This document shows positions 10,519 to 50,800 of a stretch of 64,000 bases of DNA, piece after piece. The stretch spans positions 1,860,001 to 1,924,000 of the forward strand of contig JAXQJY010000027.1 in assembly GCA_037042185.1 (NCBI GenBank), written 5' to 3'. This stretch comes from Sordariomycetes sp. S80-01Y (Eukaryota > Ascomycota > Sordariomycetes). How positions within the stretch are numbered: position 1 is the first letter of the stretch; every line of letters starts with the position of its first letter. The notes below the pieces were generated by a model. The model did no database searches, was not told the origin of the DNA, and was given only the letters and a program-made list of their open reading frames with translations. The translations under genes and the position numbers were made by a program.

Positions 10519-11498
10519 GATGGGAGTGTCTTGATCTGCTGAAGATCGGGACGATGTTGTCAGTGCTCACGTCCAGGGTAGTGATGACGACTAGGCGGGA
10601 AAGGGCGGGCTTCGACGTAGGTCGCAGGTCTGCCGCAGCCTGATTAGTGCATGCTGAGAAAAGTAATACTTCGACGCGCGGTTATGGTGCCACCGTAGAT
10701 GAAGCTGCGAAGTGAAGGTGACTCAACCTTCCTGGCTGCCTGATTGACGAAGGAAGGGAGCGTCGGGATGCGGTGATGGCGGGGCTCCGGTGATGAATGT
10801 GCCCCTGTGATCAAGAGGTGCTCGAGATGTTCAAAAGGGCAGCACAAGACAAGTGAAAGACAGAAATGGCGCTCTAAGAACTGTGGTCGACTCCAGTTAC
10901 GGGAACAAGTGAACTGGTTTCAACCCGCCTTCGCTCTAATAACTGTCATCAGGCATGAGGTAGAGCTCGGAGCTACGCGTGTGGCTTGCTGTGGCTACAG
11001 GTGAGCTCGCGCGTGGCTGCCACATAACTGGCACGTGCACGAGCTTGGTGCGGAAGAACTGCCGCCCCGTCGACCTCGCCCGTTGGAGCTTAACGTTGAA
11101 ATTTGGCCTTGGCGCTGTGCACGGACCCTTTCACCTCCCGTCTCTGGGGCAGTTGCGGTCAGGGCTCTTGAGGGTCTCCCTGCCGCTGGAGGCAGCCCCT
11201 AAAGGTCGGGAAGAGTTGGACCCCCCTGAGCGCGACGCAGGAGCCAATGAGGCCCATTGGCTCGCTCGAAATTGCTTGGACCTCACCCTGAACGTGCTGC
11301 ACCACTCCTGGGCAACCGCTTGTCTCTCTGGACATTTTCTCCTTTGCTGCTCTTTTGCACCATCTCGTATCCACGGTCCTCCCTCATACCTTTCTCTTCG
11401 AACAACAGGCTGCATCTCGACCATTGCGGTATCTCGACTCCGTTGTTTTCCCCTCGCCACAAGTCTTTGCCGCGACGAGCAGCAATCCACCAGCAAAC
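10519..11498. other. Divergent promoter region of hsv2 and cdc11
   Basis: 980 bases. The half nearest cdc11 is pyrimidine-rich, which fits a fungal housekeeping promoter and leader. Several open frames cross it but none resembles a protein. Confidence 0.55.
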
Positions 11499-13049: not shown

Positions 13050-13730
13050 TTGCCCTGGTGTCTCTCCCAGGGCACCCCTACAGAACGGGGAGACGGAGGG
13101 CCTTGGACTATCCTATTCTGCTGGCGTTGGTGTTTTCTCGCGACGAGAAAGACGAAAATATCCCTGTTGCAGAATCGAGTTGAATTTCTAACCTTAGCAT
13201 GCGATCCTCTGAAAATGTCGACGACTTGAGATGATGCTAGAAGCCGCTGGAGGGGAACCATATAAGGCACGAGGGAACGGTTGTCGGAACTATTGGAGTA
13301 TTCTCAAATAAGGGGGTATACGAGGGGGGGGCGGCACCTGACGAAGGACTCGCAAACAATTGCAGCAGTCAGGGCGCCTGGTGGCTTGTTGATCTTCAAC
13401 GCCTGGGCGGCCATCTGACTATGCCTGTGTTGGTATGCCATGTTTCGAATAGCCCCCTTATTTTCCTATTTTACTAGTGGACTTCTAATGCAAATATCAA
13501 TCAAGTTGTTTTGTTAACTTTGACGTATGCTGATTACTACAGGACTGTATACAACAAAATTGTGACTGACAAAACATGAATCGACGCAAACCCGCCAGAA
13601 CGCCCGTTCCTCAATCCAAATTGATAGCCCCCTGCGCGTCCTCACTGGCGACCACCACTTCACTGAAGGCATGCTGCATTTGTTGCGGGGAACTGGTCCC
13701 GCTGCAACAGCTCAACCTGCGCCCAGCAGC
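13050..13730. other. Convergent intergenic region with G-run
   Basis: 681 bases between converging genes. It contains a run of eight G at 13324-13331 and A/T-richer sequence near 13440-13570, as expected for 3' UTR and terminator sequence. No ORF was recognised. Confidence 0.55.
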
Positions 13731-14677
13731 TTAGTTATTGGACTGACTGTTAAGAATCCTCAGGATAGCGAGGAAGAGGTTGATGATGTCGAGGTAAAGG
13801 CTGATAGCCGCGGCAATCTCCTCCTCGACGTGATGCTTCCTCATGACCATTTGTGTGTCCACAAGGATATATCCGCTGAAGATCAGAGCAGCGAGACCAC
13901 CATAGATCAGCTCCATCGTACTGCTGTAGCTGAAGAACATGGCCATGAAGCCGAACAGCATCAACCCCCAAAGTGCTCCAAACAGATACGGCATCCAAGA
14001 GGTGAAGTCGTACTTGCTCTGACAAGCGAACAGTGTCAGGAAAACGAAGATGCCCGCCGTGAGGAAGACGGCGTTGAGGACGACGGAAGTCTTGTAGAAG
14101 GAAACTATAACGCTGATGGTGTAGGCTTCAGCGAGAGTGAAAAGGGAGAGGAACAGGAGGTTGGTCGGGTAGGATTTGCGTTTCCAGTAGGTCAGGCCCA
14201 TGAAGACCATGGCGCCGATGAGCTTAGTCCGTTGTTAGTCGGCATCATTGAGAAGAGGAACAGGGGAGACATACGGAAGCCCAGACGACAGCGACATGGC
14301 TCTGAATCCATGTCTTGTAGCCCTCACTCCAGAAGGTAAGGGCGCTGACACCGGCAGTCGCGATAAGTTGAACAGTAAGGATGGTGTAAACCTTGCGAAT
14401 GAACTGGTTGCGGATGTCGACGGTGGCCTCAGCGACCGATCCTCCGAACTGCGCCATCGTTAACTGGCTATGCTCCATCGACTAAGAGCGTACGCACCTT
14501 GAAATCATCCGGCAGGTTGTCCTCGCTGCTCCTGGGCGCCCCAAAAAGGCCCTGCTGCTCGTCGCGCGATGACGAGCCGTCGGCGTAGGCGGGTGGCGCG
14601 CTGGTGTAATCGTCGGCCTGGACGTCATCGTGGTAGTCCTCGGTCGCGGCGCGCTGGTATTTGGTTGAAGATGCCAT
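13731..14677 (-). CDS. bxi1: Bax inhibitor-1/LFG family membrane protein (Bxi1/Ybh3)
   Basis: Three exons, 14498-14677, 14275-14448 and 13731-14222, coding for 281 residues. Introns of 49 and 52 bases start GTGCGT and GTATGT. An acidic, Pro/Tyr-rich cytosolic N-terminus (about 60 residues, YTSAPPAYADG) is followed by VRNQFIRKVY-like sequence (DIRNQFIRKVYTILTVQL) and six or seven hydrophobic segments. Conserved BI-1 features are LTVQLIATA, TLAEAYTISVIVSFY and YILVDTQMVM, then EEEIAAAISLYLDIINLFL near the end. These proteins form calcium leak channels in ER, Golgi or vacuole membranes and dampen stress-induced cell death; in yeast Bxi1 takes part in the unfolded protein response. Localisation here is inferred from the family. 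Confidence 0.93.
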
Positions 14678-16685
14678 CGTGTCGGCTTGCGCGGTGGGCG
14701 GCGTTGCAATCGAGACTTGTTATGGCGATGGGGTGTAGATTCTAGGGTCGAGGACGGTTGGATCGGGAGGCGACGATGGAGTGAGGTCAACGATGTAGAT
14801 GCCTGCCCATGGTCATGTGGGGAGCCAGGCGCGTGCCAGTGGCGTTTGGAGGGGCTGTGCAGCGGAGAGTTTGAGACTGTGCGACTTGCGTCACAGGCTG
14901 CGGTGCGTCACAGTGCGAAAATGATGCTGTTCAATGGTCTAGGACATTCTGACGGCTTCGTGCCTCGTTAGGGAATTAACTCGCTTCACGGTTCAAGCTG
15001 AAGTCAGCTACGTGTCTCGTACAAATCTGGAAGCTTCGCGACTCTATCTGGTAATTCCAAAGCTGCCACATGCATGAATTTCTACGGCCTTCGCCTTGCA
15101 TTGTGTCAAATGCTGTGAAGCTCAAGCTTCATCTGACTGAATGTGATCAGAAGACAACAACGAGACGGAGGAAACCGACAACGCAAAGCTTGGTGCTTCC
15201 GTCTTAGCTGTTCTTTCTTCGTAAAGTCCATTCCCCTTGTTCCCCAACCCGTTCCAATTTCTGGATTGTGAGTACCCCCCGAGGACGGCGAAACAAGTCC
15301 GTGCCTCGACAATCTGTCATCCTTGCTCCAGACGCCTGGCCCTGTCCGGGAGCTAAACTCACAGAATCGACGCGGCGCAGGCTGAACCGTCACAAGAGCC
15401 ATCCGTGGAAGATGGAATGGTGAGCGACCATTCAGCCATTTCACCACTCAACGGAAGTACACCCCGGGCCCAATCCATCATGCTGGATTCCCTGATTTAA
15501 AACTCGTTGAGAAGAGTCTGCATGATTCGACAGCACGATGTTGTGCTGGCGATCATTCGACCCCCCCTCGAGATGGTTGGTCAATCCGAGGGTTCCTGCG
15601 ACAGAGGCGGCGGGGCCGGAGCGACTTGGATGATGAGGGGAGTCCCGTACTTAGCCAGCCGTGCGATAGCCTGGCAAGCCTGGGCTGGAGTGGTGCTTGG
15701 GCCAGATAGGCTTTTGGCGGCCTCAGGGGTATGAGCCAATGCCACGACGGTCCGGCGAACTCAATGCCACCGGGTTGTATCTTTATTCTACTTGGTAGGA
15801 TAGCTACGAAGTGCTCCGTACAAGCAGCATCGAGGTTATTAGAGTTGAAATTATCAGATCTCGGCATCGTTCGACGGCAGCGCAGTGCATTGACCCCGCC
15901 ACCACCCGTTGAGAGCTTGCAGGGCCCCAAAGTACGTTGAGCGCCTAAACGTCGCCAGAGGTCATGAGCATCCCCCTTTGTGGGCGGCTGTGATTGGTGG
16001 TGGCGGCGCTGGGCCTTTCCTCACCGCCTTGTGCAGAGGTGGGATTTGCTTCTGCTTCATGTCGCTTGGCTGCCGCGGTGTTGGGCCCCACTTCTTTCCC
16101 ACCACCGTGACCGACCCAATGCTCCCAGGACTGGGGGGGCAGGGGCTCGGGGTGGGGCTAATTGTAGCGACCGTTGCACCTGGTGGTCCGACTGCTGCTT
16201 CAAGGAGACGGGAACAACCTCGAAAATTGTCCTTCCACTCTCGCCATACCTTATCCAGACTTGGTCGCCTGCATCTCCTCCCCCCGACGGCCTCTGCTCT
16301 GCCACTGCGCTCCTCGGCTTCTCCTCACACTCGTTTGCACTTTGCGATCAAGTCCTGGACAAGGCTTTTGCAGCATCGTGGTTCCCTCGAGACCCCCTTT
16401 TCGCATAAACGCCGCTGCCAGACTTTAAGGTCGAAGCGGCAGTGTTTCTGGACCGTCACCTCTCGAATTGTTTGCCTACCCAGTCGTTGCAGCAAGGGCC
16501 GATTGAGCGTCTACAGCTTACAGGCTTGGGCTTCGCACCCCTCAAAATCCTCGCCAACCTAATTAGAAGTCTCAGCATTCTTTGAACAAGCGCTATCTGA
16601 GACCACGTCCGCTTGTCTCAAGCCCGCCCGCTTCGAAACATCCGACTCCGAGACCCCGCACATCTCAGTCCGACCGACACGAATC
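14678..16685. other. Long divergent intergenic region upstream of bxi1 and lag1
   Basis: 2,008 bases. Reading both strands I found no protein-like frame, RNA gene or repeat. The last few hundred bases before 16686 are C/T-rich and probably form the lag1 promoter and leader. Frames such as the one at 15909-16562 look like chance ORFs of GC-rich DNA. Confidence 0.5.
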
Positions 16686-30243: not shown

Positions 30244-31236
30244 ATGGCTCCTATCGTGCTCCCATCGAACCAGCCCCCTGAGCGCTTCTACGTGGGAGGT
30301 CCCAAGATCTCAGCACTGCGAGGCGAACCAACAAGCGGACCTCGCCAGCCAGAGGACTGGGTGGCATCAACGACATGCTGCAATGGCTGCGAGTCCTCTA
30401 AGCTCGGCATGTCGACCCTCCCCGATGGACGACTACTCGCCGACGCCATTGCCGCAGACCCGGAGAAATGGCTGGGGGCTGATCACATCGCCCGTTACGG
30501 CGTGGACACCAAGATGTTGTTCAAGCTGCTGGATGCTGGCCAGCGACTGCCGGTCCATGCGCACCCTCACGTTGACTGGGCGAAGAAGCATGTTGGTGCG
30601 AAGCACGGCAAGGCTGAGGCCTGGTACATTCTGACACCGGGGGAGATTCACCTGGGACTGAAGGAGGACGTCGGTTCAGAGGAACTGCTGGAAATTGTCA
30701 ACACTCAAAACATTGACAAGATGCTGTCCAAGATGCACAAGCTCAAGGTGGAGCCTCATCAGATTGTGTACGTGCCTCCCGGTATGCTTCACGCTATCGG
30801 AGAGGGCATCTTGATTGTCGAGCTGCAAGAGCCTGAGGACTTGTCCGTTCTTGTCGAGTGGACTGGCTTTGCAATCGACGGCGCGAAGGATGGGCACCTC
30901 GGCTTGGGGTTCCCAACTGCTCTGACGGCAGTAGACCGGCAGGGCAGAAGTGACGGGGACATGGCAAAACTTATCACAAAGGCTGTGTCCGGTCCTTCGG
31001 CGGCGAAAGAATCTGAGGAATACTTCATCATCGAGAGATTCCAAGTCTCTGGAAGGCAGGAGTGTCAGCATGGCTTTGCCATCATGGTCGTTCTGGAGGG
31101 GAGACTCGCGCTCAAGACGTCTGCTGGTGCCTCGTTAGACCTGGAGAAGGGCAAGACGCTGATTGTCCCTTACGAAGACGGGGACTTCACGTTGGAAGGA
31201 TCAGGAGACGTGGTGATTGCCCGACCGCCCAAATAA
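30244..31236 (+). CDS. Class I mannose-6-phosphate isomerase-like cupin, bacterial type
   Basis: A single exon of 330 residues. The two-cupin core has a zinc-site region PVHAHPHVDWAKKH with HGKAEAWYIL (His, His and Glu ligands as in class I isomerases), then EPHQIVYVPPGMLHAIGEGI supplying the last His, and LQEPEDLSVLVEW. Its length and order match the short ManA/YvyI proteins of Bacillus and relatives; the housekeeping fungal enzyme is about 100 residues longer. The reaction would be aldose-ketose phosphate isomerisation, but the sugar may differ from mannose given the neighbours. Lack of introns and the bacterial layout suggest transfer from bacteria (inference). It converges on the SAF-domain dehydrogenase gene and starts cluster A. 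Confidence 0.85.
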   Translation: MAPIVLPSNQPPERFYVGGPKISALRGEPTSGPRQPEDWVASTTCCNGCESSKLGMSTLPDGRLLADAIAADPEKWLGADHIARYGVDTKMLFKLLDAGQRLPVHAHPHVDWAKKHVGAKHGKAEAWYILTPGEIHLGLKEDVGSEELLEIVNTQNIDKMLSKMHKLKVEPHQIVYVPPGMLHAIGEGILIVELQEPEDLSVLVEWTGFAIDGAKDGHLGLGFPTALTAVDRQGRSDGDMAKLITKAVSGPSAAKESEEYFIIERFQVSGRQECQHGFAIMVVLEGRLALKTSAGASLDLEKGKTLIVPYEDGDFTLEGSGDVVIARPPK

Positions 31237-31647
31237 TCCAAGAATAAATGGAAAACTTGATTATGCTAAGAACACTGTGTCCACTGTGTTTGGCAGCCAG
31301 CATCCTTATTACAGCTCAGATCTCGCGCACATTGCTCTTCACCCTCCACCTTGCGTGGTGAAATCGCTCCAAAATCTCCAATCAATAATGATTCGCCCGG
31401 ACAGTGCTTGTGTTGACGTGGAAACCAGTAAAGACATATGAGCTCTTCTTGCTTCGCGCGCATATGTATCCCGGCGACTCTTACTGGCACAATCATTTCT
31501 AATTTTAAATAGAAAGGTTGTTCATTATTCTATCATTCGTTGCCTAGGCGTTGCTACCCGTCCTGGGCTACTGTAGGCATTCCCTATGGTCTGGGGTGTG
31601 CTTCCGCTGTCCGTCCCAACTTGTTGCCCCTTCTTCTTTGATCCCTT
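31237..31647. other. Convergent intergenic region
   Basis: 411 bases between the isomerase-like and dehydrogenase genes; A/T-rich and gene-free. Confidence 0.55.
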
Positions 31648-33106
31648 TCAAGCATGAACGCCGTTAACGCCGTTGACCTTCTTCGACTTGAACTCGCCCT
31701 TGAACAGGGCCTCCATCTCCTTACGGACAGCGACCGCCTGTGCAGTCTCGGTGAACTCGATGTCATCCCAGCTCAGACGCTGGTCCTTCTTGACAGCTCT
31801 CTTGAGCACCCAGCCGTGAGCCAAGCCAATGGGCAGACCCGAGATGGCCATGGAGTCAGCGGCAGGCATCAACCTCCCGTAGACGGTGTAGCCACCTTCT
31901 CCATCAAGCTTCTCGCCAATCTCCAAGTCACGCTTCGCCGTCGCGACGACATCGCCTGACCATGTCTTGGTCTGGCCGGTGGGCTCGCCACGGACCATGA
32001 TGGAAGCAATCGAGATTCCGAGCTCGAGACCGATCAAGTGGTAAGGCTTGTACTGCGCGGCGTACCATCCACTCTCATCAGTCTTGAGACCATACTGTGC
32101 GAAGCATTCCTTCTGGTACTGATCAGGCGCTACATCCTATTAGTATTCGGCCAATGTCTACAATGGGCATTTAGGGCGGAATCGACTTACCCTTGATCAC
32201 GACGTACACTCCCCATCGAAGATGGTTAAACGTCCAGCGGCCGTCTTCCTCCATACACGACACAACCTCGACTGTGCCATTCTTCTCATTCTGGCCACCT
32301 TCGCTGATGGGCTTCAAGCGCTGAGGCAGATCCCAGACGCCGCATGGAGGGAAGTTGAGACCGTTTGTGGGAGGGTCCAAGTCGCATCCGTTGGCGACAG
32401 CAGCCATCTCGAGCGCCGACTTTGTGCCGTCCAGGAACGAGTTGAACATCTGCGGGTTGAAATCCCCCGAGTCGAGCTGCTCCTTGGTGAAACCGTAATA
32501 ATCCCACACCTTGGCCGGGGTCGAGTAGTGGTACTCAGGAAGGTGCTTGGTCCCCTTTCCTGCGCAGACAACCTCGAAGCCGGCGGTGCGTGCCCAGTCG
32601 ACGAGCTCTGCTATCAGGGCTGGCTGGTCACCGTACGCCATGGAATAGATAATGCCTGCCTCCTTGGCCTTCCTCGCCAATAAGGGACCGGCCAGGACAT
32701 CGGCCTCGACGTTGATCATAACAATGTGCTTCTTGTGCTCACAGCACAACAAGGCATGACGGATACCTGCCGAGGGATTCCCTGTCACTTCTAAGATGAC
32801 GTCTATCTCAGGGGTCGCGATCAGCGCAGCCGAGTCGGTGGTGATGATCGTCTTGTTCTCCTTGATGCCCTCTGCCACGGAGAGCTTGCATGTCTCATCG
32901 TACTGTCCCTCGGGGTACCCTGTCCTCTTCAAAGCAGCCAGGGCGCGCTCTGATGAGAGATCTGCGATGCCCGCCAGACGGATGCCCTTTGTGCGGAAAG
33001 ACTGAGAAATGTACATGGACCCAAACTTGCCAGCGCCAATGATACCGACCTGAACGGTCTTGCCGGCATCAGCCAGCTCGGCTAGTTTGGATGACAGACT
33101 GGTCAT
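31648..33106 (-). CDS. NAD(P)-binding homoserine-dehydrogenase-like protein with C-terminal SAF domain
   Basis: Exons 32191-33106 and 31648-32129, intron of 61 bases (GTAAGT..TAG), 465 residues. A Rossmann fold opens at about residue 18 with VGIIGAGKFGSMY and continues through IRLAGIADLSSERA and IDVILEVTGNPSAG. The C-terminal part carries a SAF-like domain (ATAKRDLEIGEKLDGEGG, VLKRAVKKDQRLSWDDI). This layout is that of the COG4091 'predicted homoserine dehydrogenase with SAF domain'. SAF domains also occur in sugar-acid dehydratases, and such proteins are mostly found in bacteria near sugar-acid genes. A true homoserine dehydrogenase role is unlikely; oxidation of a sugar acid or polyol is inferred from context. 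It is divergent from the MFS transporter across 1.3 kb. Confidence 0.85.
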
Positions 33107-34419
33107 GATGGTGATGTGTGCAGGGTGTTATGGTAGAAGGGTCATGTGTAAGTCGGATTGAAGTGATTTGAGGATGGTGACTGACGATTTCAACAACCGA
33201 ACATATCGCGTCCTGGACTTGCTTTTATCACATTCAAAGTCCGAAGTCGCATTACAAGAGCCCCATCTTTGCCTCATCAATGGTGGACATTCTCACGCTG
33301 GACAGCCGATCTGAAGCCGTCTTGTGACCATCGGTATAACGGGCAATGCGCCGATTCCCCGATTGATTGAGCAAGCTGGGCCACCTTGTCCAACTTATCC
33401 ACTGGGCTCCCCAAACTTGAGCTCTAAAAGCCTATGCCCTCGGTAAAGACTGCTTTCACACACTGGGTCTGCTTTCGACCTCTCATTTATGTATCGGCTT
33501 AACCGCTGCTTGGTGTATATCCACCTTAGTTCCTGGCGAGTCATTAGGCCTCATCACGAACTGCTTGCACCCATTGGAATTTCCCAGAAAAGACATAACG
33601 CAGCGGCTGGTGTGGATTATCCTCAGCTTTTGCTGCACAGGCAACCTCCACTACAGTCTCCGCCAATGTATTTGGGCACATTGGCTCATCTTCGAGCAGG
33701 GGCTAAGCCTTTCTCAAAGAACTCTCGATCCGCCTCGTACTTCAATCCTTATTTTCCACCTGCGCAAGGAAAAAAAAATTCAAAAGGCATGGCCACAAGT
33801 TGCCAAAGGGCTCTGCATATCTCCATGAGGCAGAATGAGCGGTGGGCTTATGCTTGGGGACAGCTGTTCCCAGCTCAGAGGCCTTAACAGTACATCCATC
33901 TCCACAATCAGTGTCTGAAAGCTTGGCGTTAGCTTGCTCTAGACCGGCTTAAGATGCTAGCCAGTGGAAATCCCGATTTCCCGGTCCCCGTTTGCCGGTA
34001 TCCCCCCTGACTCGCGTAACATACCAATACTCCACATGGTTGCGGCACCACGTGCCACTCGCATGACGGAGCCGAACGATGTGAATATTGGGACGGAAAA
34101 TCAGGTCGGGGAATCTGGGGTTCCCCGTACAGGCCAGGCATCATTGCAACATCTGCACCCCGGATGGGGGAGGAGATTGCGTTCCGAAGGTCCAGTCCTC
34201 GATTAACCAGCAGCGTAGGGAGCCTTTGTCCGGTTCCCTGGAAACACTGCCGAAGGATCAGTCAATGCTCGGCAGCATCTGATCTTGTATAAGACCCTCC
34301 ACAAAGTCGAATCCCACAACGCTCTTGAAGACCTACGCGCAGAGATTGCTGGTCTGACTATCTCATCCACTTCAGCTGCTTCTACAATTTTGCTTGCTCC
34401 GACCTTCTCCGCAACTATC
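33107..34419. promoter_or_regulatory. Divergent promoter of SAF-dehydrogenase and MFS transporter
   Basis: 1,313 bases without a gene. It holds an inverted pair of one 10-mer, GATTCCCCGA at 33353-33362 and TCGGGGAATC at 34106-34115, plus TCCCGATTTCCCGG at 33971-33984. Related words stand before the cluster A regulator and kinase genes. A short A-run is at about 33769. Candidate binding sites for the cluster's Zn2Cys6 factor; this is inference. Confidence 0.5.
33971..33984 (+). promoter_or_regulatory. 14-base word shared with regulator promoter
   Basis: TCCCGATTTCCCGG, about 440 bases before the MFS start. The same 14 bases occur on the same strand at 36493-36506, 59 bases before the Zn2Cys6 gene. 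Seen directly; function inferred. Confidence 0.45.
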
Positions 34420-36094
34420 ATGGCTGGTACAACGATTCAGCAAGCTGGCGTTGACCCGGTTGACTATGCTGCGATTGTGGCATCGTGGTCCCCCGAGCAA
34501 CGGAAGGAGAAGGAGAAGAAGTTTCTGAGGAAAATCGATGCACGACTCATCCCGATTTTGGTACGTTCTTGATTGTTGTTGTTATGACTGCGCAAGCTGA
34601 CCTCGAGCAGTTCGTCATGTACATCATGAACTACATCGATCGAAACGCCGTCCCGCACGCCCGTGTGCAAGGTCTCGAGGACGACCTTGGACTCCAGGGT
34701 GTTCAGTACAACGTTGTTCTGAGCTTGACATTTATTGGATACATCTTGATGCAAGGTAGGTGGCTTCAAAGCCCGGAACCACACAAGAACCCGAGTCACT
34801 AACGTCTTCTAGTTCCTAGCAACATGATTCTAAGTAAAGTCCGGCCCAGCTGGTATCTCTCCTGCTGCATGATTGCGTGGGGTATTGTCAGCGGTGCAAC
34901 TGGTGCAGTACAAGGCTTCAGCGGTCTAGCTGCTTGTCGCTTCTTCCTAGGAATCACGGAGGTTAGTCTATATCCTAGGTGGTCACTCTTCAACCCTAAC
35001 GAATCGTTCAGGCCCCCTTCTTCCCTGGTGTTGCGTACCTTTTCAGCGGATGGTACACGCGCAAGGAGCTCGGTCTACGGCTCGGAATCTTCTTCTGCGC
35101 GGCTATGCTTGCCGGTGCCTTCGGCGGTCTCTTCTCAGCCGGTATTGCTGCTGCTTTCGAGAATCACAGCATCCCTAGCTGGCGCTGGCTCTTCATCATC
35201 GAAGGCGTCGCTACCGTCGTTTTCGCCGTCGTGACCGGCTTCGTCATTCCTGACTGGCCATCCACCACCAAGTGGCTATCTGACGAGGAGAAGGCCCTCG
35301 GTGTGATTCGTCTTGTCGAGGATGCCGGCGATGAAGAAGAGGACATCAACACCTGGAGCGCCTTCAAGATGGCCTCCAAGGATTTCCGTGTTTGGCTCTG
35401 CATTCTGGGCCAGCTTTGTATCCAGGCAGTGGCGTCCTTGACCAACTTCTTGCCTACCCTCGTCAAAGACTTCGGCTACCCAACTATCGAGACTCTTCTT
35501 CTTACGGCTCCACCGTTTCTCTTTACCGCTATCTTCTGCCTGTTCAACACCTGGTACTCCGACCGTACGAGCAAGCGTTCGCCTCATATGATCTATCCTT
35601 CGCTCGCCGCGATCGCGGGTATCATCATCACCATGGCTACCACCAATACTGGCGCCCGTTACTTTGCTCTTTTCCCAATGTTGGCAGGTACCTACGGTTG
35701 CTTCCAGATCTCCAACGCCTGGATGGCCAACATTGCCGCCCGTCCCCAGAAGAAGCGCGCAATTGGTCTTGCGATGAACAACTCCATTGGCAACCTGGCT
35801 CTGGTGTGGACTCCTTACCTGTACCCCGAGTCTGATGGGCCTCGCTATATGACTGCCTGGTCAGTCAATCTTGCCTTGACGGTTGTCACAATTACCAGTG
35901 CTGCTGCTCTGAGCTTCTTCCTTAGACGGGACAACACGAAATTGGAACATATCGATTCTGCCATCTCGGTCGAACAGGGAGCGGCTGATATCAAGGATGT
36001 CAGCGAGCATCTTGAGAAGCACGGCGAACACACGACCGCAGGCAGGGCTCTCGGGGGCGCTAACGCCGGGGCGAAGGCCAAGTACGATGTCTAG
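34420..36094 (+). CDS. MFS transporter, anion:cation symporter (allantoate permease-like) family
   Basis: Four exons, 34420-34560, 34611-34755, 34813-34961 and 35012-36094, coding for 505 residues. All introns have good ends (GTACGT, GTAGGT, GTTAGT donors). A cytosolic N-terminus ends in RKIDARLIPIL, the usual lead to TM1, followed by MNYIDRNAVPHARVQGL. Family motifs include VPSNMIL, ACRFFLGITEAPFFPGV, LFSGWYTRKELGLRL and WRWLFIIEG; twelve membrane segments fit. Members import organic anions such as allantoate, nicotinate, tartrate or sugar acids. Beside a sugar-acid kinase and a dehydrogenase, a sugar acid is the likely cargo (inference). Divergent to the dehydrogenase, and followed by the regulator gene on the same strand. 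Confidence 0.93.
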
Positions 36095-36564
36095 ATAGCT
36101 TTCTAACCTTGTTAGTGTCATTGATCCAAGTACTATCATAAAATCCCCAATAAATGTTTATGTAACTATGCGCTGTACTTCGATTGAGTCTCATAGTCCT
36201 AAATGTCGTATTCCAATGTCCAGGGTTAGCATCGAGCCCTTCAAAAGGGGTAGAGAAAGAACTGACAAGCGCAATCCACTATAGCAACAACCGAACAAGA
36301 CCTCGGGCACTCGGCCAAATCTTCGTGACTCTGTATCCACCTTTTCGAAGCCATTGCCTTCTAATGTCCTGACTGTCGGGTTCGGACTTGTGCCCAGACC
36401 AAACGCCCCCCAGTCCTCCACACCTCCCACACTAGCATCCCCCGCATTCCCCACTAGCGAGATTGGAGAAACGCTCAAAAGAGGAGGGCATTTCCCGATT
36501 TCCCGGGCTCGAACACTCCCCATCTTAACACCATCATTCTGGGAGAGAGACAGAAAATTTCGAG
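36095..36564. other. Intergenic: MFS 3' region and regulator promoter
   Basis: 470 bases. The stretch before 36565 contains the shared word at 36493-36506. No ORF recognised. Confidence 0.5.
36493..36506 (+). promoter_or_regulatory. Second copy of the shared 14-base word
   Basis: TCCCGATTTCCCGG ends 59 bases before the ATG of the cluster A Zn2Cys6 gene, which would allow autoregulation. Identity with 33971-33984 is seen; the role is inferred. Confidence 0.45.
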
Positions 36565-38894
36565 ATGGACATGCAACCGGAATCGCAAAATGAAGAGTGC
36601 GCTGCGGGCTCGACGAAATCACCCAAGTTGCGGCGACAAAGCGAAGATGGCGAGACGAAGCCTAAGATGCTCAGGGGCGTCGGCTCCGGGCCGGGGAGGA
36701 AGTCTCGGGCTTGTAAGTGGTCCTCCTCTAATACACAGAAGAACTGAGAAACTGACAGTTGAGCTGCAGGCATGGAGTGCAAGAAACTGAAAATGAAGTG
36801 CGAAGTGTTTCCTGGAGATCGAAAATGCAAGCATTGTCTACGAAGGAAAGCCGAATGTGTTTTCAAGACAACGCAGGTGATCCAGGTCGATTCGGAAGAG
36901 GGCCTATTCGCATCTTCTGATCGCTATGAGTCTGTAACAATGCTCACGTTGAAGGTGTATTTATGCTGACGACACTGCAGAAGAAAGATGGATCTCATGA
37001 GGGAAGAGATGCGCCAAATGCGAGAGAGCCTCAACGGTCTTCTCGCGGAGAGACGTCCACAAAACACTCTGGAGCCCACCTTGACAGCACTCAACCTGCC
37101 AACTGGAACCCCGAGCAACACTCAAACGAGCCCTGCAGGGCTGTCGAGCACGAGAGAGGACAACACGCAGATGGCTATGACGAGGGAGAATTCCCTGGAG
37201 CCGGAGCACAAGCCTGATCATGCGGTCACAGTCGAAGAACCAATGAGTAGTCTTTACGAGGTCACTCGTCTGCGAAACATCAGGAGCAACAAGGCGAAGA
37301 CCGTGAGGCCGCATCCCGGCAGCCAGGGCGAGCTGAATGATTTTATCTCGAGGGGTGTGATATCGGAGCACGAAGCGGAGGAGCTCTATAAGATGTAAGC
37401 TCACCGCTGAACCTGTGGCGCACTCGCTGACATTGCAAAAGCTTCCACATGTCTCTCAACCATTACCTCTGGGTTGGCTTGGAACAAACGCATCCCTCCT
37501 TCTATTCAGTCCGCAAATCCTCTGAGCTCCTCACGGCAACTATCCTCGCAGTAACGGCTCTTCACATTCCCACCAGTGCCGAGACGTTCGACAAGTGCTA
37601 TCGCGAATTCCTAGGCCTGATCTCGTCATCAATGTTCTCCCGATACCACAGCATTGACGATGTACGAGGCCTTTGCATCGCCGCGTTCTGGCTATCCGAC
37701 GTCTCGTGGAAGTTGTCGGGGCATGCGATCCGGATCGCCACCGAGCTCAACATCCACCAGTCTTTCGCCAAGGCACTCGAGGGCGACAGGGAGCACTTTC
37801 AGCGAGCGAGGCTATGGTATATGCTCTATGTTTGCGACCACCACTTCAGCATTGCCTACGGCCGACCGCCCATGATCGCCGAGTCAATACAGATTCGGGA
37901 GCATGAGCTGTTCCTTTCTTCGCCGTTCTCTGATGCCATCGATGCGAGGATACTGTCGCAAGTCTCGCTGATGCAGATCCTAACGCGAGTATATGAACGC
38001 TTCGCAGAAAGACGACTTCCCTCGATCAACACGATCCGTAATGGACCGAATGGACCCATGACACCGTCGGATTCATCAGCAACGATGCTTACGGAGGAGG
38101 ATTTTGTAGATGTGCGCAACTTCAACCTGGAGATCGAGCAGTGGCGCATGCGGTGGTATTCTCGACAGAGAGCGAACAGCTTCATCGGAAAGTTCCCACC
38201 ACAGGGCATCATCCTGTACTCGTACTTCGCCAAGCTGCAGCTCAACATCCTGGCGGTTAGGGGTGTTAGCCTCAACTCCGGCAGACTGTCTACCGAGCGA
38301 AAGGAGCTGACCAACATGGCAATCTCGGCAGCTGCAAGTATTCTGACGTTTGTGCTGGAAGAGGAGGACATGCGGCGCGCCCTCGTCGGCACGCCACTTT
38401 ACGTCCACATGATGATCGCTTTCGCCTCCGTCTTCTTGATGAAGGTGGCGACGAAGTGGAACCGAATCATGGGCTTCAACATCGAGCACTCGTACGCCAA
38501 CGTCTCACGGCTGTTGGAGAAGATGATTGAACTCCTCAAAAACAGCGTCACGTCCGATCGCCATGTCCTGCACCACATCGCCGCCGGCTTGGAGAAGATG
38601 CTCGGTACAATGACCTCCGAAGCCAAGGACGAAGAACAAGGACAGCAAGAAGTAGCTGATCCGATGCGGCACAATATGGGATACGGGAGCTCGCCCATGA
38701 TTAGCTCTGGCTTTGGGGCGGCAGTTCAGGGGGCGCAGCTGATTGCCCCTGGATGGGATCCCACCTCGCACCCACCGACGGATGACTTCTTTGGAGACGG
38801 AAGCACTTTCATGAATGACGCTATGCTATACGAGGCTTTTGGAACGGAGAGCTCAAACGATGTTTACAACTTACTTAGCAGTCACTTTCAGTAG
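36565..38894 (+). CDS. Zn2Cys6 fungal transcription factor (cluster A)
   Basis: Four exons: 36565-36712, 36770-about 36929, 36981-37394 and 37442-38894, about 724 residues. The zinc cluster is split by intron 1 and reads C-x2-C-x6-C-x8-C-x2-C-x6-C (starting CMECKKLKMKC). A coiled-coil-like linker (MDLMREEMRQMRESL) follows. Intron 2 is the least certain: the frame requires a GTCTGT donor at 36930, a weak consensus. The fungal_trans domain lies in the last exon (FQRARLWYMLYVCDHHFSIAYGRPP). Such regulators bind CGG-type sites as dimers and usually act on nearby genes. Position between transporter and kinase makes it the probable cluster A activator. Its stop is 43 bases from the kinase stop on the other strand, so the 3' ends probably overlap. 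Confidence 0.88.
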
Positions 38895-38937
38895 TAGGTG
38901 AACACTTTGATATTTGTTTTTGCGGCTCCTAGATCAA

Positions 38938-40395
38938 TCAGCTCTTCTCGACCCTCCAGCCCTTCACCACATCGAAAAGAGTTTGCTCAGAGCCGACATT
39001 CCCCGGGAAGACCACGTATGGTAGACCTGGCCACTTGCTTTCCGGCTCGTCGCACCTCCACAGCGGCACTCCGGGCGCAGCCTGTCCCACAATCATAGCC
39101 CTCTTAAACCTCAAGCCCTTGGTCGCCATGTCTGAGCTTGTGATACCACCCTTCGCAATGACATATCGTGGCTTCTGCTCCAGTTGTTCCAAGAAAGACA
39201 CCAGAGCTTTCGCAACTATGGAGCCGATATCCAAGGACTTGGCTTCGTCGGCTCCAGTGATAAGCTCGCGAGATGTCATGATTAAAACGTCTTGACCTTT
39301 CTTGATCTCAGCGGATGCCGTTTCTAGAGCGCTCGAGATAGCCTTAGTTATGTTGTCCGGAGACTCGAGAAGCTTCCGCACGTCGAGCACGACAGTTGTC
39401 AGCTTGTCGCCGCTCTTGGACCGCAAAACCTCGAGTTGAGCAGTCGTCTTGGGCACGTAGCTTCCAGCAATGACCAAACCGCCGACATCCCCTGACAGCT
39501 TCAGCTGACCGGCGGATATAGGGTCAATACCTTCGATAGCCAGCCTTGCGGACACGAACGCTGCACCGGTCCGAAAGAGGAATCTCTTTCCGGAACTCGA
39601 GGCCTGGAGCAGAGCTTCAACCACAACATCCATGTCTTCCTCGGCAGCTGCATTGACAACAATGACTGGTTTCTTCACCTTCTCCGTCGTCTCGAGAAGC
39701 TGCTTCAGCACTGCGTCCGTGCCGCCATCGCGTATCGTGTCGATGCTCAGTGATGATACCTGCTCCGGCTTGATCGAGCCCTTGGCCTTCTCCACCACAT
39801 AGTCCTTCAAATTCGAGTTATTGTAGCCGAAAGTGGCGTCCTTGGCAAAAGGTGTGTGAGAAGCAGGCAAGAGTCTGTCGCCCTCGGCGACATAGTGGAC
39901 GTCATCAATCGTATAGCGCCCTCCTTGCAAGAAAAATGGACAGACAACCCAAGCGTCTGCCTCTCCCAAGACGGCCTCCGTAGCCTCCGCCTCGAGCGGG
40001 AAGTGCCCCCTCAAGGTCGAATCACTCCGCAGTACTACCTCGAACGGGGTGTCCGTTTGCTTACTAGCCGCCTGCAAATTTGTGCAGATTTCTGTGATGA
40101 GCGCACGAGCAGGCTCCGGATGGAGGGCGCGTGAGTTGGTGAGGATAAAGAAGCCTGAGCCAGAGGGTGTAGCCTTGAACTCGGACACAAGCTGCGGGAC
40201 GGACCAGGTCGTGAGGATGCTGATGTCGTGGCAGGTTTGGGTGCCGGTTGGGTCGTCGTCGAGGGTGACGAGAATTGGGGCTTTGGAGTTGGAGGATAGA
40301 GACGACTTTGTCTTTGCCCGGAGTCCTTGAGCCTTGATGGGAGGCAAGTCTGCGAGAGTTGACTTGAGGTCGCGGACCCCGTTCTGATCGACCAT
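38938..40395 (-). CDS. DUF1537 four-carbon acid sugar kinase
   Basis: One exon of 485 residues. The start at 40395 is the first ATG in frame; upstream frame extends but has no ATG. The N-terminal domain shows LVTLDDDPTGTQT and VVLRSDSTLRGHFP, and GGRYTIDDVHYV. The C-terminal nucleotide-binding domain has IAGSYVPKTTAQL, VIAKGGITSSD, KRAMIVGQAAPGVPLW and VFPGNVGSEQ. These are the marks of the DUF1537 kinases, shown in bacteria to phosphorylate D-threonate, D-erythronate, 3-oxo-tetronates and related branched acids before cleavage or decarboxylation. Substrate here is unknown. No partner aldolase or decarboxylase was found in the window. Likely cytosolic. Few introns in this and the isomerase gene fit a bacterial origin. 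Confidence 0.9.
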   Translation of the reverse strand: MVDQNGVRDLKSTLADLPPIKAQGLRAKTKSSLSSNSKAPILVTLDDDPTGTQTCHDISILTTWSVPQLVSEFKATPSGSGFFILTNSRALHPEPARALITEICTNLQAASKQTDTPFEVVLRSDSTLRGHFPLEAEATEAVLGEADAWVVCPFFLQGGRYTIDDVHYVAEGDRLLPASHTPFAKDATFGYNNSNLKDYVVEKAKGSIKPEQVSSLSIDTIRDGGTDAVLKQLLETTEKVKKPVIVVNAAAEEDMDVVVEALLQASSSGKRFLFRTGAAFVSARLAIEGIDPISAGQLKLSGDVGGLVIAGSYVPKTTAQLEVLRSKSGDKLTTVVLDVRKLLESPDNITKAISSALETASAEIKKGQDVLIMTSRELITGADEAKSLDIGSIVAKALVSFLEQLEQKPRYVIAKGGITSSDMATKGLRFKRAMIVGQAAPGVPLWRCDEPESKWPGLPYVVFPGNVGSEQTLFDVVKGWRVEKS

Positions 40396-40838
40396 CTTGG
40401 TGGTGGGTCGAGGAGGGGGTGCTGATGAGGGGCGCTGGTTTGCAAGTAATCCTTGCACTTTGTGTAATATGCTGGTGATAGAAGCGACCGAGGATTTGGT
40501 ATGGTGAATTGAAGTAGACAAGGATATCAAATGTAGTTATGAGTGGGTGTGAGAAGGTAGTGAAGAGGGAATCGGGACAAAGACCGATGCCGCCGGAGAC
40601 AGGTCCGAGCTGGCGGCTAACGCACCCACGCCGAGCGGCCTTTCGGGAAAAGCACTTTCATACAACATTTGGGAACTTACAGAAGTGCGAGCTCTAGCGA
40701 AAATGATAGATCCGAATATCATACAATGAAAAGTTCTATGTACTTGCAGATATATACGGGTCGGTGTGGGTATATGCAATCAATCAAACACGCAAGACAT
40801 CAAAGTCGTGTCTCATAAGCCGTTGTTTTCTCCCTCTC
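40396..40838. other. Intergenic: kinase promoter and lipase 3' region
   Basis: 443 bases. Contains the word TCCCGATTCCC on the minus strand at 40567-40577, a one-base-shorter version of the cluster A promoter word. No gene. Confidence 0.5.
40567..40577 (-). promoter_or_regulatory. Variant of cluster A promoter word upstream of kinase
   Basis: TCCCGATTCCC, 172 bases before the kinase ATG, differs from TCCCGATTTCCC by one T. Seen directly; regulatory meaning inferred. Confidence 0.35.
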
Positions 40839-41886
40839 TCATTCGCCGTTGACAAAAGCAATATCCTGCTCAACCCATCCATTGAGACGGTCCTCGAGCT
40901 CAGCATCATCAGCGTCGGACGCCCTCTTGACACCAAAGTCGCCGCTGCAGCCCGAGATCTCGCCAAAGTAGTTCAAGTGCGCATCGATGTTGAGACCGAA
41001 GGTGCCCGCGTTGCATTTGATGTTAGCGTTGCCGGGGCAGACCTTGATATCGCTGACAGGGTAGTCGGGGCCGCTGATTCCAGCGACGGACAGCCAGTAC
41101 TCGGGGGAAGTGTGGCGGTAGCCGAAGATGATGGGAGGCAGGCGAGGGACAGGGTCGTCGATGTGGGTGATGCGGTATTCGGGTCCATCCTGGGCGGAGA
41201 TGTAGTCGCTAACTACATCGTTGCCGACACGGGGGCTCCCGTACGAGTAAATGTCGACGGCGATTCCCTGGTTGCGGAGATCAGCAGCTCCGAGGGTAGC
41301 AACTGCAGCACCGAGGGAGTGGCCAGTGGCAATGACCTTGAAGCCGGGGTGAGCGCTCAGGGCTTCGGTGATGGTTGACGAGACGCCGGAAGCCATTTCG
41401 TTCCACGCAAAGTTGAACCCATCGTGGACCTTGGCGCCAGCCGTCAAGCTGCTGTCCTCGAAGTCGAAGTTAAGGTTGCTGATCCAGTTGCGGACATTGC
41501 TGCTGCCACGGACAGAAAGAACGATCTCACTACGAGACTCATCGAGAGCTACGTAGCCAGCGATGCCGGTCCAGAGGCCATCGAAGCTACCGAGAATAGT
41601 CGCACCATTGGCCTCAACAGTAGGGCAGTTGCCGCTACAGGTAATAGGGGTTCCAGCCGCTAGGCCAACATTGCAGTAAGAGGCACCAGCGTGCTCGGCA
41701 AAGAAGGCAAAGTTGTCGACCTCAGCGTCACCGACGGACTCTTCGCAAGGTTAGCCGAGAACTCACAACACGACGGATCTACTTACGCCTAGCTACGTGG
41801 CGAAGCGCTGTGGCATAGTCCTGGGCTGACCTTATGGGAGTGGCAATTGCCACAGCGGCCAAAGACAATATCGACAGGGCCAACAT
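40839..41886 (-). CDS. Secreted class 3 lipase
   Basis: Exons 41787-41886 and 40839-41740, intron of 46 bases (GTAAGT..AAG, branch GCTAAC), 333 residues. A signal peptide is clear (MLALSILSLAAVAIATPIRS), with a short propeptide. The alpha/beta-hydrolase core has VLSVRGSSNVRNWISNL (oxyanion region), the nucleophile elbow GHSLGAA with Ser about 175, an acid in HIDDPVPRLPP, and the closing His in DAHLNYFGEISGC. This is the Rhizomucor/Thermomyces lanuginosus lipase family (fungal class 3). The C-terminal extension after the His is about 40 residues and acidic. It cleaves acylglycerol or related esters outside the cell. Lies between the kinase and the GH105 gene; a role with the acid-sugar genes is not evident. 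Confidence 0.93.
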
Positions 41887-43409: not shown

Positions 43410-44570
43410 ATGCGCTCCCATGTCTTTGCCTTCATACTCGGCTTTACGCCCCAAGTGTGCCACTCTCTGCCCAGCCGCGTCAGTATGGATGCACGCAACG
43501 ACCATGTCGACTGGTCGGTGGGGATAGTGGACTCAACGTTGGAGCGGTATACTCCTTATACCTTTGAAGGATGGCAATACTTCACCGGGTTCTACCTCTT
43601 AGGCCAATACGAGGTCTACAAGCGGACAGGCGAAGAGCGCTATCTGGACTTCATACAACAGTGGGCGGATCGTTGGATCGACGACCAAGGCAACGTCAAC
43701 GTCGAGATTCACAGCCTTGACTTCATGCAGGCTGCGAACGTATTCCTGCTGCTGCATGAGGAAACAAAAGACTCAAAGTACCGCCAGGCTGCGTCGCATG
43801 TTCGCAACCTTCTCGATGACTACCCGCGCACTCAAGACGGAGGCTTCTGGCACGCTGAAGACTTGCCTCATCAGCTCTGGTCTGACGGCGTCTTCATGGT
43901 CAACCCCTTCCTCATCCGCTACGGAGCCATGTTTGACGAGTCCGACTACGCCAACGACGAAGCTGTGAGGCAACTCAAGGTTTATGGGAAGCATCTCCAG
44001 GTGGACAACGGACTATTGCAGCACGCATACGATGAGTCCCGGCAACAAGATTGGTCAGACCCGGAGACTGGTCGCTCGGAGGAGCAGTGGTGCCGGGCTA
44101 TGGGCTGGTACGGCCTGACGATGATGGACGTCTTGGATGTTCTCCCAGAAGAGCACCATGGCCGCGGGGATATCATCAAGAGACTTGAACGGTTTGCCAA
44201 AGGCGTAGTCAAATACCAAGACCACAGGAGCGGCCGCTGGTTTCAGGTGGTCAACAAGGGCTACGAAGAGGAGAACTGGACCGAGACGTCATGCTCAGCA
44301 ATGTTCACATATGTCCTCTCACGATCGCTTGAGAAGGGATACCTCAAAGACAGGGGCCTGAGTGCTGCGGTGGGCAGGGGGGCTTCAGGCGTTCTGGAAC
44401 GCATTGGGAAGAATGATGAAGGGCTCACGGATGTACAGGAGATCTGTATCGGGACGGGTGTTGGGAACCTGAGCTTCTATTTTAACCGACCTCGCGCGAC
44501 CAACGATCTACACGGTCTCGGTGCAGTCCTCTTGATGCTCGAGCAAGTCAACCACGGCAGAGACAAGTAG
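43410..44570 (+). CDS. GH105 unsaturated rhamnogalacturonyl hydrolase
   Basis: One exon, 386 residues. The (alpha/alpha)6 fold of GH105/GH88 is visible from repeated aromatic-rich helices (FEGWQYFTGFYLLGQYEV, DFMQAANVFLLLHEET). The catalytic Asp is probably residue 159 in HQLWSDGVFMVNPF, matching the general acid of Bacillus YteR. Further family motifs are EEQWCRAMGWYGL, WFQVVNKG, NWTETSCSAMFTY and VQEICIGTGVG. These enzymes hydrate and so remove unsaturated galacturonic acid from oligosaccharides left by pectate or rhamnogalacturonan lyases. The first 19 residues (MRSHVFAFILGFTPQVCHS) could be a signal peptide, though weak. It fits the island's carbohydrate theme by acting on pectin fragments. 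Confidence 0.93.
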   Translation: MRSHVFAFILGFTPQVCHSLPSRVSMDARNDHVDWSVGIVDSTLERYTPYTFEGWQYFTGFYLLGQYEVYKRTGEERYLDFIQQWADRWIDDQGNVNVEIHSLDFMQAANVFLLLHEETKDSKYRQAASHVRNLLDDYPRTQDGGFWHAEDLPHQLWSDGVFMVNPFLIRYGAMFDESDYANDEAVRQLKVYGKHLQVDNGLLQHAYDESRQQDWSDPETGRSEEQWCRAMGWYGLTMMDVLDVLPEEHHGRGDIIKRLERFAKGVVKYQDHRSGRWFQVVNKGYEEENWTETSCSAMFTYVLSRSLEKGYLKDRGLSAAVGRGASGVLERIGKNDEGLTDVQEICIGTGVGNLSFYFNRPRATNDLHGLGAVLLMLEQVNHGRDK

Positions 44571-47847: not shown

Positions 47848-50800
47848 TTACACCCATTCCTTCAGCCATGCTTCCACGCACCTCCTTAGGAGCCCACTGG
47901 TCACCACATCGTACCCTTTGCGCATGACCTGGCTCCTCGCCTCCGTCCGCGTAGTGTCAAATACGAGGCCACTCCTGCCGGGCCTGTCGTTGTCATACTT
48001 CTCGGCGAAGAAATCCAACAACTTGATGGTCGGGTTCAGCTTGGGGCCTTGCTCGCTCTCCCGCAGACGCCTCACCCACTCGCGTTGGCTGACAACCTCG
48101 AATTTGAGGCCAGCTTCCGCTAAGGCAGGAAGAACTTGATCCGTCCAAAGGACCGAGGCGGGGTTCTGGACATGGTAGACCACGTCTGCTCCATCTGGAA
48201 CCTGGAAGTAGGCTGCAGTCTGGTTGCTCACGGGTGCAAGACCGCCGAGCTCAATGATAGCCTCGGCGCAAAGATCGACTGGTAGCCACCACGGAGTCTC
48301 GTCCAGGGCCGGCAAGGCACCGAAAGCGTGAGCCGCGCGGAACATGAGCGGGATGGCCTCGGTCGAGTTCCAGATACCTTGCTTCGAGTCGCCGATGATT
48401 TGTCCTGACCGAAGGACCCGAGCCTCCATCCCCGTCATCTTGGCCGCTGCGGTGACGATGTGCTCAGCTACCCATTTGCTGCGTGCGTAGCCCATATTCT
48501 GCGCGTGTGCCGGATCTTCGACGACAGCCTCCGGTACCGTCGCCGGAGAGGGAGTGCCTGCCGCGGCTGAGATGGAGGAAATGAAGGCAAGGCGGGCCGG
48601 TCGTGCGAACGGGACCGAGAGACAGAGGTCTAGTAAGTTCTTGAGCCCGGCGATGTGCTGCGCTTCGAAACTTCGGACTCCAATATTAAAGTTGACGGCC
48701 CAGGCGGAGTGGATGACGGATGTGACGGTGGAGGAGAGAGCGGTGAAGACTGCCTGGCCTAGGCCAAGATCAGACTGTCCCAGGTCTGCAGGCAGAGCTG
48801 TGAACGTGGCTGAGTGGTGCAGAGATGAAAGCCCCTGTTCTCTGAGGCCGGCGAGGATGCGCTGGTGTGCGGAGCTGTGGTGTGGGGTGAGGCCTCTTGT
48901 ATGCAGTGACTCAAGAACACGTTGCTGAGCGGCTTCAGGTGTGGAAGCCCGTACCAGACAGTATACATGACGAACATGAGGTAGGGAAATAAGTTGAGAG
49001 AGAATATGCGCGCCCAGAGAGCCAGTCGCACCGGTGAGAAGCTGACGATCGTTAGCACAGCCCCTTTTTCCAAAAAGGGGTAGTGGGAAGAACAAGGTAA
49101 ACTCACAATAACCTCCCCGTCTGGTATTTCCGTGCCACCCACGAATGGCTTAAAATCAGAGTATTTGGACACCAACTCCCGCATGACATCTTCCTCCGAT
49201 TGCTGAACCAGGTCTGAACCTGTCCGCAGCGAGTTCAAGTAGGCAGCCAGGCTCTTCACAGTGGGGTAGTCGAAGAAGACCTGTTGGGGCACCGGCTTCT
49301 CTCCGAGATCCAACTCACGCATCAAGTACGCACGCGCTGTGATGGCTTGCAGGCTGTCCATCCCGGCTGCGAAGAAGTCCGTCTCGGCGCTGAGGCCTGC
49401 TGCAAGGCCGATTCGCTCTGTGAGCAGCTTCAGGAGGTACTCTTCCAGCTCCGGGACATCGAGGGCCAGCCTGTCTGCGTTCCCGGGGTTTTCGAATCTT
49501 TGGTACACGTCCTCGATCACTTCCTTGAAGTGCTCGTAGCTGGCGGCACGGATGACTGTGCCCTTGTCTGTGCGTGGGTATTCAGTGCCAGCAGGCATGA
49601 TCTGCACCATCTCCCGGGATACCCTGCCGAAGTGCTCCGCCCTTTGGTTTGCGTCTTCGATTGTCGGCCACAACAGGTCCAGGAGCTCCCCTGCGGAATA
49701 GCCCTTGTCTGCTGCGTGTTGACTAGGGATGATGAGAAGCCCGGGGAAAGCCCTGCCGACACCAAATACCAGACAGTCCTGGACCAGCTCGCTTTGGCGC
49801 ACCCTATGCTCATAAGGGACAGGGAGTACCTTCTCGCCGTTGAACAGGGTCACTCGGTCATCTAGACGACCTAAGTACTTCCACGCATCCGGGATGGTCG
49901 GGTGCTTAACGAAGGTGTCCCGCGTGCGAAAAGAATCTGGCGGGTCGTCGCAGTTGGACGTTGTCTTGGAGGGAAGCCCGCTCAGCACAATCAGCTCAAA
50001 GATACCGGCGGTAATCTCGTCGAATGCCAGGTAGGGTGCTGTGCTCTTTAGTGGACGGACGTAGTTCCAGGCTTTGTCCACGGCGTTGTCTCTTTGGGAA
50101 GTCATGAGCTGGCCCATTTCTGTTCTGCAAGATAGTCAGTTCTGGCTTGCACAGGTGGACATGGGCAATGAACCACTTACGCGCCGAAGTGAGAGACAAT
50201 GTTGACCCCGTGCTGCACCAGCAGATCGCCCAAGTCATCCGGGCAGCTACTTCCGCCGAACAAGACCAACTTGGCCTTTGCCAGCTCCGCAATCCCCTCC
50301 TCGGTCTCAGCCAGAACCTTCAGTGCGTAAGGTACACAGTGAAAGCTCTCAAATTCGATGGTCTTCATTGCCGAGACCAAGTGGCCGTTAGTCAACGGGA
50401 GGTTGGCGTTGTAGATCATGGTTCGCTTGCCCGCCAGAATGCCCCTGAAAGTTGTCGACAAGCCGTGGTTGTGAAAGAGTGGCAGCGTAACAAACGCTCG
50501 CATCCCACTGCCAACAGCATAGTTGCTGAGACATTGTCTGTGGGTCTGATAGATTGGCTTGGGAAGGCCAGTGCTTCCTGACGAGTGGACGATGAAAGCT
50601 ACTGTGTCCTCCTCGTTGGTGAGCTCAGTTTCGCGCTGGAATCGTGGGGCATACGCTGCCGGTGACCCCCAGATCGACTTGTCCGGAAGCCGAAAGCTTT
50701 GAACCGCGTACAGCTCTTGAACACCTTTAACAACAGTGTCAAACTTAGGAGCCGTCACAATGCGAGTGCAGTCTGTCTTGCTGAGCAGGGAAATGTATGC

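Follow-up and report, generated by a model that had tools for sequence, protein, structure and literature searches.

Five adjacent genes fill positions 30244 to 40395 of a 64,000-nucleotide stretch of DNA from the ascomycete Sordariomycetes sp. S80-01Y (contig JAXQJY010000027.1, positions 1,860,001 to 1,924,000; the whole stretch analysed is called the window) and encode an MPI-like (class I mannose-6-phosphate isomerase-like) cupin, a Rossmann/SAF oxidoreductase, an MFS transporter, a Zn2Cys6-type regulator and a DUF1537 kinase, all intact. Together they may serve to break down a small sugar acid, with four-carbon acids such as threonate or erythronate as the likeliest candidates, through a module in which an oxidoreductase of the DLO type occupies the dehydrogenase slot and an unlinked aldolase acts last; this reading is given about an even chance of being right. 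In such a route the sugar acid would enter through the MFS protein and be oxidised to a keto-acid by the DLO oxidoreductase, with NAD(P) as cofactor; the DUF1537 kinase would phosphorylate this keto-acid, and a class II aldolase or decarboxylase whose gene lies elsewhere in the genome would cleave the phosphate to a product at the triose-phosphate level. The cupin might act as an isomerase or epimerase on the substrate or on the keto-acid, and the Zn2Cys6 protein would turn on the cluster genes, presumably by direct control.

An earlier note on the window had described the same five genes and named their families; the positions are confirmed, with open frames for all five, and the names are borne out by profile matches. 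The genome around the window (30.9 Mb in 16 contigs) has a fungal gene structure, the guanine-cytosine (GC) content across the cluster is unremarkable and splice junctions were set by hand at GT-AG sites. The two central enzymes are each single-copy: a six-frame search of the whole genome finds one gene with PF07005, the kinase (38938..40395, minus strand; 485 amino acids from the likely ATG, intronless), and one gene with PF21135, in two exon pieces, the oxidoreductase (33106-31648, minus strand; 465 amino acids). The latter has a single GT-AG intron (32130-32190) between exon 1 (32191..33106), which encodes the Rossmann domain and the greater part of the DRL catalytic domain, and exon 2 (31648..32129), which carries the end of the catalytic domain, the SAF domain and the stop. 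By arithmetic done post hoc, chance alone would bring two unrelated single-copy genes this close, to about 7 kb or less, in about 5 of 10,000 cases in 30.9 Mb.

The DUF1537 kinase matches PF07005 (197 bits, cut-off 25; 5e-58) and PF17042 (142 bits, cut-off 28.3; 3.2e-41), both bit scores being those of the 530-amino-acid frame 40530-38938. Among the DUF1537 proteins of 26 loci examined, phmmer gives it 244-304 bits with seven members of one subgroup, which carries the motifs AKGGITS and GNVG; none of the others exceeds 19 bits. It keeps 65 of the 71 columns that are near-invariant in this subgroup (the same in at least 94% of 19 bacterial rows), including DDDPTG, DSTLRGH, AKGGITS and GNVG. Matches to the kinase occur in 18 of 296 genomes of the phylum of genome G018 (Actinomycetota), the best at 44% identity; 13 of these 18 genomes, the five weakest being excluded, and six of seven plasmid matches provide the 19 subgroup loci whose surroundings were compared. 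Of the 19 kinases, 14 have a GarR/LtnD-like dehydrogenase no more than 1 kb away and 6 have an F_bP class II aldolase nearby; for the two dehydrogenases scored (L142 and L145) the best model is L-threonate dehydrogenase, at 298 and 302 bits (cut-off 350). The fungal kinase stays below the NCBIfam cut-offs for OtnK (40 bits, cut-off 350), DtnK (64, cut-off 450) and OiaK (26, cut-off 700), as do the five bacterial subgroup members scored. The genes at the subgroup loci correspond to those of a three-step threonate route reported in PMC12540250, in which, with credit to Guo et al. 2024, bacterial LtnD, 2-OtnK and 2-OtnC lead to dihydroxyacetone phosphate (DHAP), 2-OtnC being an F_bP_aldolase. By these comparisons the kinase belongs to a subgroup linked to F_bP aldolases and LtnD-like dehydrogenases, and it is a putative counterpart of the assayed Arthrobacter 2-OtnK.

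The sugar-acid role that the earlier note had proposed for the kinase is supported, and its order of oxidation followed by phosphorylation is a plausible reading; its 3-oxo intermediate fits less well than a 2-oxo one. Because the kinase subgroup adjoins F_bP class II aldolases and threonate-dehydrogenase-like genes, its context favours a route through a 2-oxo acid over one through a 3-oxo acid. In the 3-oxo version, which is unlikely, the oxidoreductase, alone or with the cupin, would give 3-oxo-tetronate, the kinase its 4-phosphate, and an unlinked Aldolase_II-type decarboxylase DHAP. Such a route could draw on Aldolase_II genes, which the fungal genome has, and on the MPI-like cupin, which could conceivably perform the 2-oxo/3-oxo isomerisation of OtnI, but the kinase falls in the F_bP-aldolase-linked subgroup and scores far below the cut-off of the 3-oxo-tetronate kinase model (40 bits against 350). 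No aldolase or decarboxylase is present inside the cluster, as the earlier note had remarked, and genes of both aldolase families are found unlinked to it in the genome: F_bP_aldolase in five match pieces, read as four genes, with unlinked members at C7:214695 and C9:535260, and Aldolase_II in nine match pieces at about six places.

The earlier note had called the oxidoreductase an NAD-binding/SAF-domain dehydrogenase; the family stands and the assignment is revised to DLO. This type is related to DXR-II, and the searches turned up no substrate for it. The protein matches DRL_cat (PF21135, 199 bits; 8.7e-59) and PF01408 in exon 1 and the SAF domain (PF08666, 1.2e-06) in exon 2, and its best solved relative is the DRL of Brucella (PDB 3upl, E 1.2e-57). 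The nearest relatives in the collections searched, at about 63-66% identity, come from Methylobacterium, Herbaspirillum, Caballeronia and Comamonadaceae. In a maximum-likelihood tree of 75 rows the fungal protein groups with 51 rows that include Methylobacterium and Herbaspirillum, with a support of 93/89 that is slightly short of the tool's 95/80 mark, and on a long branch whose exact place the tree leaves open. It keeps 121 of the 132 near-invariant DLO columns (at least 97% conserved over 73 bacterial DLO rows), against 70 in the part of Brucella DXR-II that aligns. Thr229 and Arg320 of DXR-II (Brucella numbering), which PMC3847144 lists among the functional-divergence sites of that enzyme, are replaced by Ser230 and Lys333; at these positions the bacterial DLO rows have Ser in 69 of 73 and Lys in 64 of 73, with Arg in 9. 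That paper terms DLO uncharacterised and places Methylobacterium species under DLO2, and it is through this listing that the bacterial DLO rows are taken as the DLO2 clade.

By its sequence the oxidoreductase is a member of the DRL superfamily of the DLO type and not a true DXR-II. That it works as a DXR-II and supplies 2-C-methyl-D-erythritol 4-phosphate (MEP) for isoprenoids is extremely improbable: the common superfamily and the match with the Brucella structure would be in keeping with this role, but fungi make isoprenoids through the mevalonate pathway, and the role is rejected on account of the absence of the signature residues Thr229 and Arg320, the grouping with bacterial DLO rows and the conserved DLO columns. 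Moreover, four DLO1/DLO2 proteins could not complement a DXR mutant in the tests reported in PMC3847144. It is possible, as a more tentative proposal, that DLO, which comes from a widespread bacterial family without a found function, opens a DUF1537-kinase catabolic pathway as its dehydrogenase or oxidoisomerase, perhaps for a branched or unusual plant sugar acid.

The MPI-like cupin (30244..31236, plus strand; 330 amino acids, intronless), a candidate isomerase or epimerase, matches PF21621 MPI_cupin_dom at 44 bits (cut-off 27) and TIGR00218 manA at 69 bits, short of the cut-off of 116; against PDB 1qwr (5.7e-16) its HAHP, GKAE and MLHA align with KVHP, GKTE and TLHA, which we take to hold the His/Glu/His metal ligands. 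In the genome the cupin matches itself only, and it is unlikely to be the main mannose-6-phosphate isomerase of the cell, because two PMI_typeI_cat matches, neither of them the cupin, are found elsewhere. A single-sequence structure prediction of the cupin had a mean predicted local distance difference test (pLDDT) of 41 and was not used. The MFS transporter, a candidate ACS-type importer (34420..36094, plus strand; exons 34420-34560, 34611-34755, 34813-34961 and 35012-36094; 505 amino acids, three introns) matches PF07690 (149 bits; 1.5e-43), and a 329-amino-acid frame within its last exon has the D-galactonate transporter TIGR00893 as best NCBIfam match, at 92 bits (3.6e-26; cut-off 395). 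The regulator (36565..38894, plus strand; exons 36565-36712, 36770-36876, 36988-37394 and 37442-38894; 704 amino acids, three introns) matches Fungal_trans PF04082 at 23.4 bits (cut-off 23) and Zn_clus PF00172 at 19.8 bits (cut-off 21), and its six-cysteine pattern, read directly, is complete in the spliced model.

A motif first spotted by eye occurs in the promoters of four of the genes. CCGATTYCC is found five times in the 64 kb: two copies lie between the divergently oriented oxidoreductase and MFS genes, one upstream of the regulator, one upstream of the kinase and one far off. The candidate regulator sites are CCGATTCCCCG (33351..33361, plus strand), on the oxidoreductase side of the divergent region; TCCCGATTTCCCGG (33971..33984, plus strand), on its MFS side; an exact 14-base match to the latter, TCCCGATTTCCCGG (36493..36506, plus strand), upstream of the regulator gene; and CCGATTCCC (40567..40575, minus strand), a match to the core only, upstream of the kinase gene; the first and the last come from a pattern scan. 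The longer form CCGATTYCCCG is present 27 times in the genome against 20 for a reversed control, and three of the 27 are here within 3.2 kb. In an unbiased longest-shared-word test, the length of the 14-base word was equalled by 21 of 1000 random region sets. The shared motif weakly supports co-regulation and is suggestive only.

Several observations weigh against the five genes forming one pathway. None of the 19 subgroup kinase loci has a DLO or an MPI-like cupin, and none of 77 bacterial DLO loci (70 from genomes, some of them short, and 7 from plasmids; gene calling in high-GC loci recovers the DLO frame in 75 of 80) has a kinase of the fungal-type subgroup. A DUF1537 gene of another kind is within the fetched flanks of 4 of the 77 (L011 and L017 from Herbaspirillum, L031 from Methylobacterium and L061, labelled Arcanobacterium); these surfaced only with broader queries, the fungal kinase as sole query having found no DUF1537 near any DLO locus. 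A DRL-family gene is present in 99 of 399 genomes of the order of G009 (Burkholderia by its title), and 51 of the 80 of these genomes that were searched for DUF1537 have one; both lie within 10 kb in 1 of the 80, G009 itself, where the DRL homologue is distant, and many of these genomes are drafts in short contigs, in which some links may be hidden. The plasmid locus L072, whose DLO is among the closest (65%), has no evident acid-sugar neighbours, and a tally of neighbours round 23 DLO loci, taking 99 of 111 called frames, gives a weak pattern (MFS 8, GntR and FCD 5, LysR 4, DctP and Aldolase_II 3). DLO may perform another step, because it is also found beside GarR-like dehydrogenases, a gene of this type being present in 8 of the 77 loci (within 0.4 kb in L048, L049, L056, L075 and L076, farther in L045, L062 and L077). 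As regards the promoters, CCGATTYCC is absent from that of the cupin, its core with one mismatch has 15 more matches elsewhere in the window, and the second unbiased test, a search for shared 10-base words, gave no significance, with scores as high in 46 of 400 random sets and in 199 of 300 shuffles. Finally, the two genomic F_bP_aldolases closest to those beside subgroup kinases are 32-37% identical to them over longer stretches, and another reaches 43% over 84 residues.

The five genes might then be accidental neighbours, or share a function only in part, the cupin especially being perhaps unrelated. The combination of kinase subgroup, DLO and cupin, seen in no bacterial locus examined, and the cupin promoter without the motif both favour such an explanation, which nevertheless appears rather doubtful, since two single-copy bacterial-type carbohydrate enzymes stand within about 7 kb with a transporter and a regulator between them and the promoters have the 14-base word in common. 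The transfer of the whole cluster as a ready-made bacterial operon is not supported, because the 77 DLO loci rarely carry DUF1537 and never the fungal subgroup.

Linkage of DLO and DUF1537 in bacteria exists and is rare, and acid-sugar genes stand beside DLO in a minority of the bacterial loci. The clearest case seen is L061, where DLO, GntR, MFS, a 3-oxo-tetronate kinase (OtnK, 382 bits, cut-off 350) and Aldolase_II all run in the same direction (9998-16231). L011 has apionate-like genes, with an OiaK kinase (836 bits, cut-off 700) adjoined by a RuBisCO-like protein closest to OiaX (439 bits, below the cut-off of 700) and a PGDH_C protein; the kinase of L017 is 86% identical to that of L011, and close relatives of other L011 genes are present too. 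L031 has PdxA, a KdgT permease and a kinase closest to DtnK at 175 bits (below the cut-off of 450), and some plasmid DLO loci have TRAP transporters, an IlvD-type dehydratase or an SMP-30 lactonase. The GarR-like genes found in 8 of the 77 DLO loci, five of them within 0.4 kb, also count in favour of a DLO role in acid-sugar breakdown. In G009 the distant DRL-family gene lies about 1 kb from the DUF1537 gene, on the opposite strand (C17:74999-77070).

About 3 kb past the fungal kinase there is a GH88/GH105-family gene (43410-44570, plus strand) whose nearest solved relative is yteR (1nc5, 1.1e-77). YteR acts on unsaturated rhamnogalacturonan, and the gene may tie the cluster to pectin. With pectin as the source, the substrate could be a branched sugar acid: DLO would couple hydride transfer to a skeletal rearrangement, as an oxidoisomerase comparable to D-apionate oxidoisomerase, and feed the derived keto-acid to the kinase. 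This is quite improbable. The DRL catalytic domain and the 70 of 132 near-invariant columns that DLO shares with Brucella DXR-II, the two Herbaspirillum loci with DLO near a 3-oxo-isoapionate-type kinase and an OiaX-like protein, and the GH88/GH105-type gene are in its favour; on the other side, Thr229 and Arg320 of DXR-II are not retained in DLO, the fungal kinase has 26 bits with the OiaK model and the apionate-like locus L011 possesses a PGDH_C-type dehydrogenase of its own. Between the kinase and the GH105-type gene lies a class 3 lipase gene (40839-41447, minus strand; upstream exons outside the model), whose nearest solved relative is an extracellular lipase (3ngm, 8.1e-66), feruloyl esterase A being more distant. 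Farther on (47848-50117, minus strand), AMP-binding C-terminal, PP-binding and NAD_binding_4 domains follow one another in the layout of a carboxylic-acid reductase or of a reductase like the non-ribosomal peptide synthetases (NRPS-like).

Among the literature matches listed, with most subscription journals outside scope, there was neither a description of a fungal pathway of this kind nor a function or substrate for DLO. DRL-family oxidoreductases are common, as in the order of G009, and the searches made found no substrate for the DLO branch; the five-gene fungal cluster narrows its substrate class and makes the substrate testable. The proposed module, if real, would give DLO its first substrate, would bring DUF1537-kinase acid-sugar catabolism into fungal metabolism and would be an acid-sugar route made of parts not seen together in the bacterial loci examined. 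Taken as a whole, the earlier interpretation is partly supported and its broad outline is reasonable.

Known systems offer three comparisons. The bacterial three-step L-threonate pathway and the Arabidopsis LTD fusion protein, which PMC12540250 likens to the LtnD/2-OtnK/2-OtnC route, also combine an F_bP-aldolase-linked DUF1537 kinase with a dehydrogenase; in the fungus, however, the dehydrogenase is DLO instead of a GarR-type LtnD, the aldolase is unlinked, an MPI-like cupin is added and the genes are separate. Bacterial four-step acid-sugar operons (LtnD or DenD, OtnI, OtnK, OtnC and MFS), such as the erythronate operon of Brucella (PMC10580937), likewise bring together a DUF1537 kinase, an MFS protein and a dehydrogenase, and L061 has DLO beside OtnK; in contrast, the NCBIfam score does not class the fungal kinase as OtnK, and OtnI and OtnC are not in the cluster. 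DXR-II and DLO1/DLO2 (PMC3847144) share the Rossmann, DRL catalytic and SAF domains with the fungal oxidoreductase, which differs from DXR-II in having the DLO conservation pattern. The cluster may plausibly represent a novel form of an established pathway type, and a four-carbon sugar acid is the leading candidate for its substrate.

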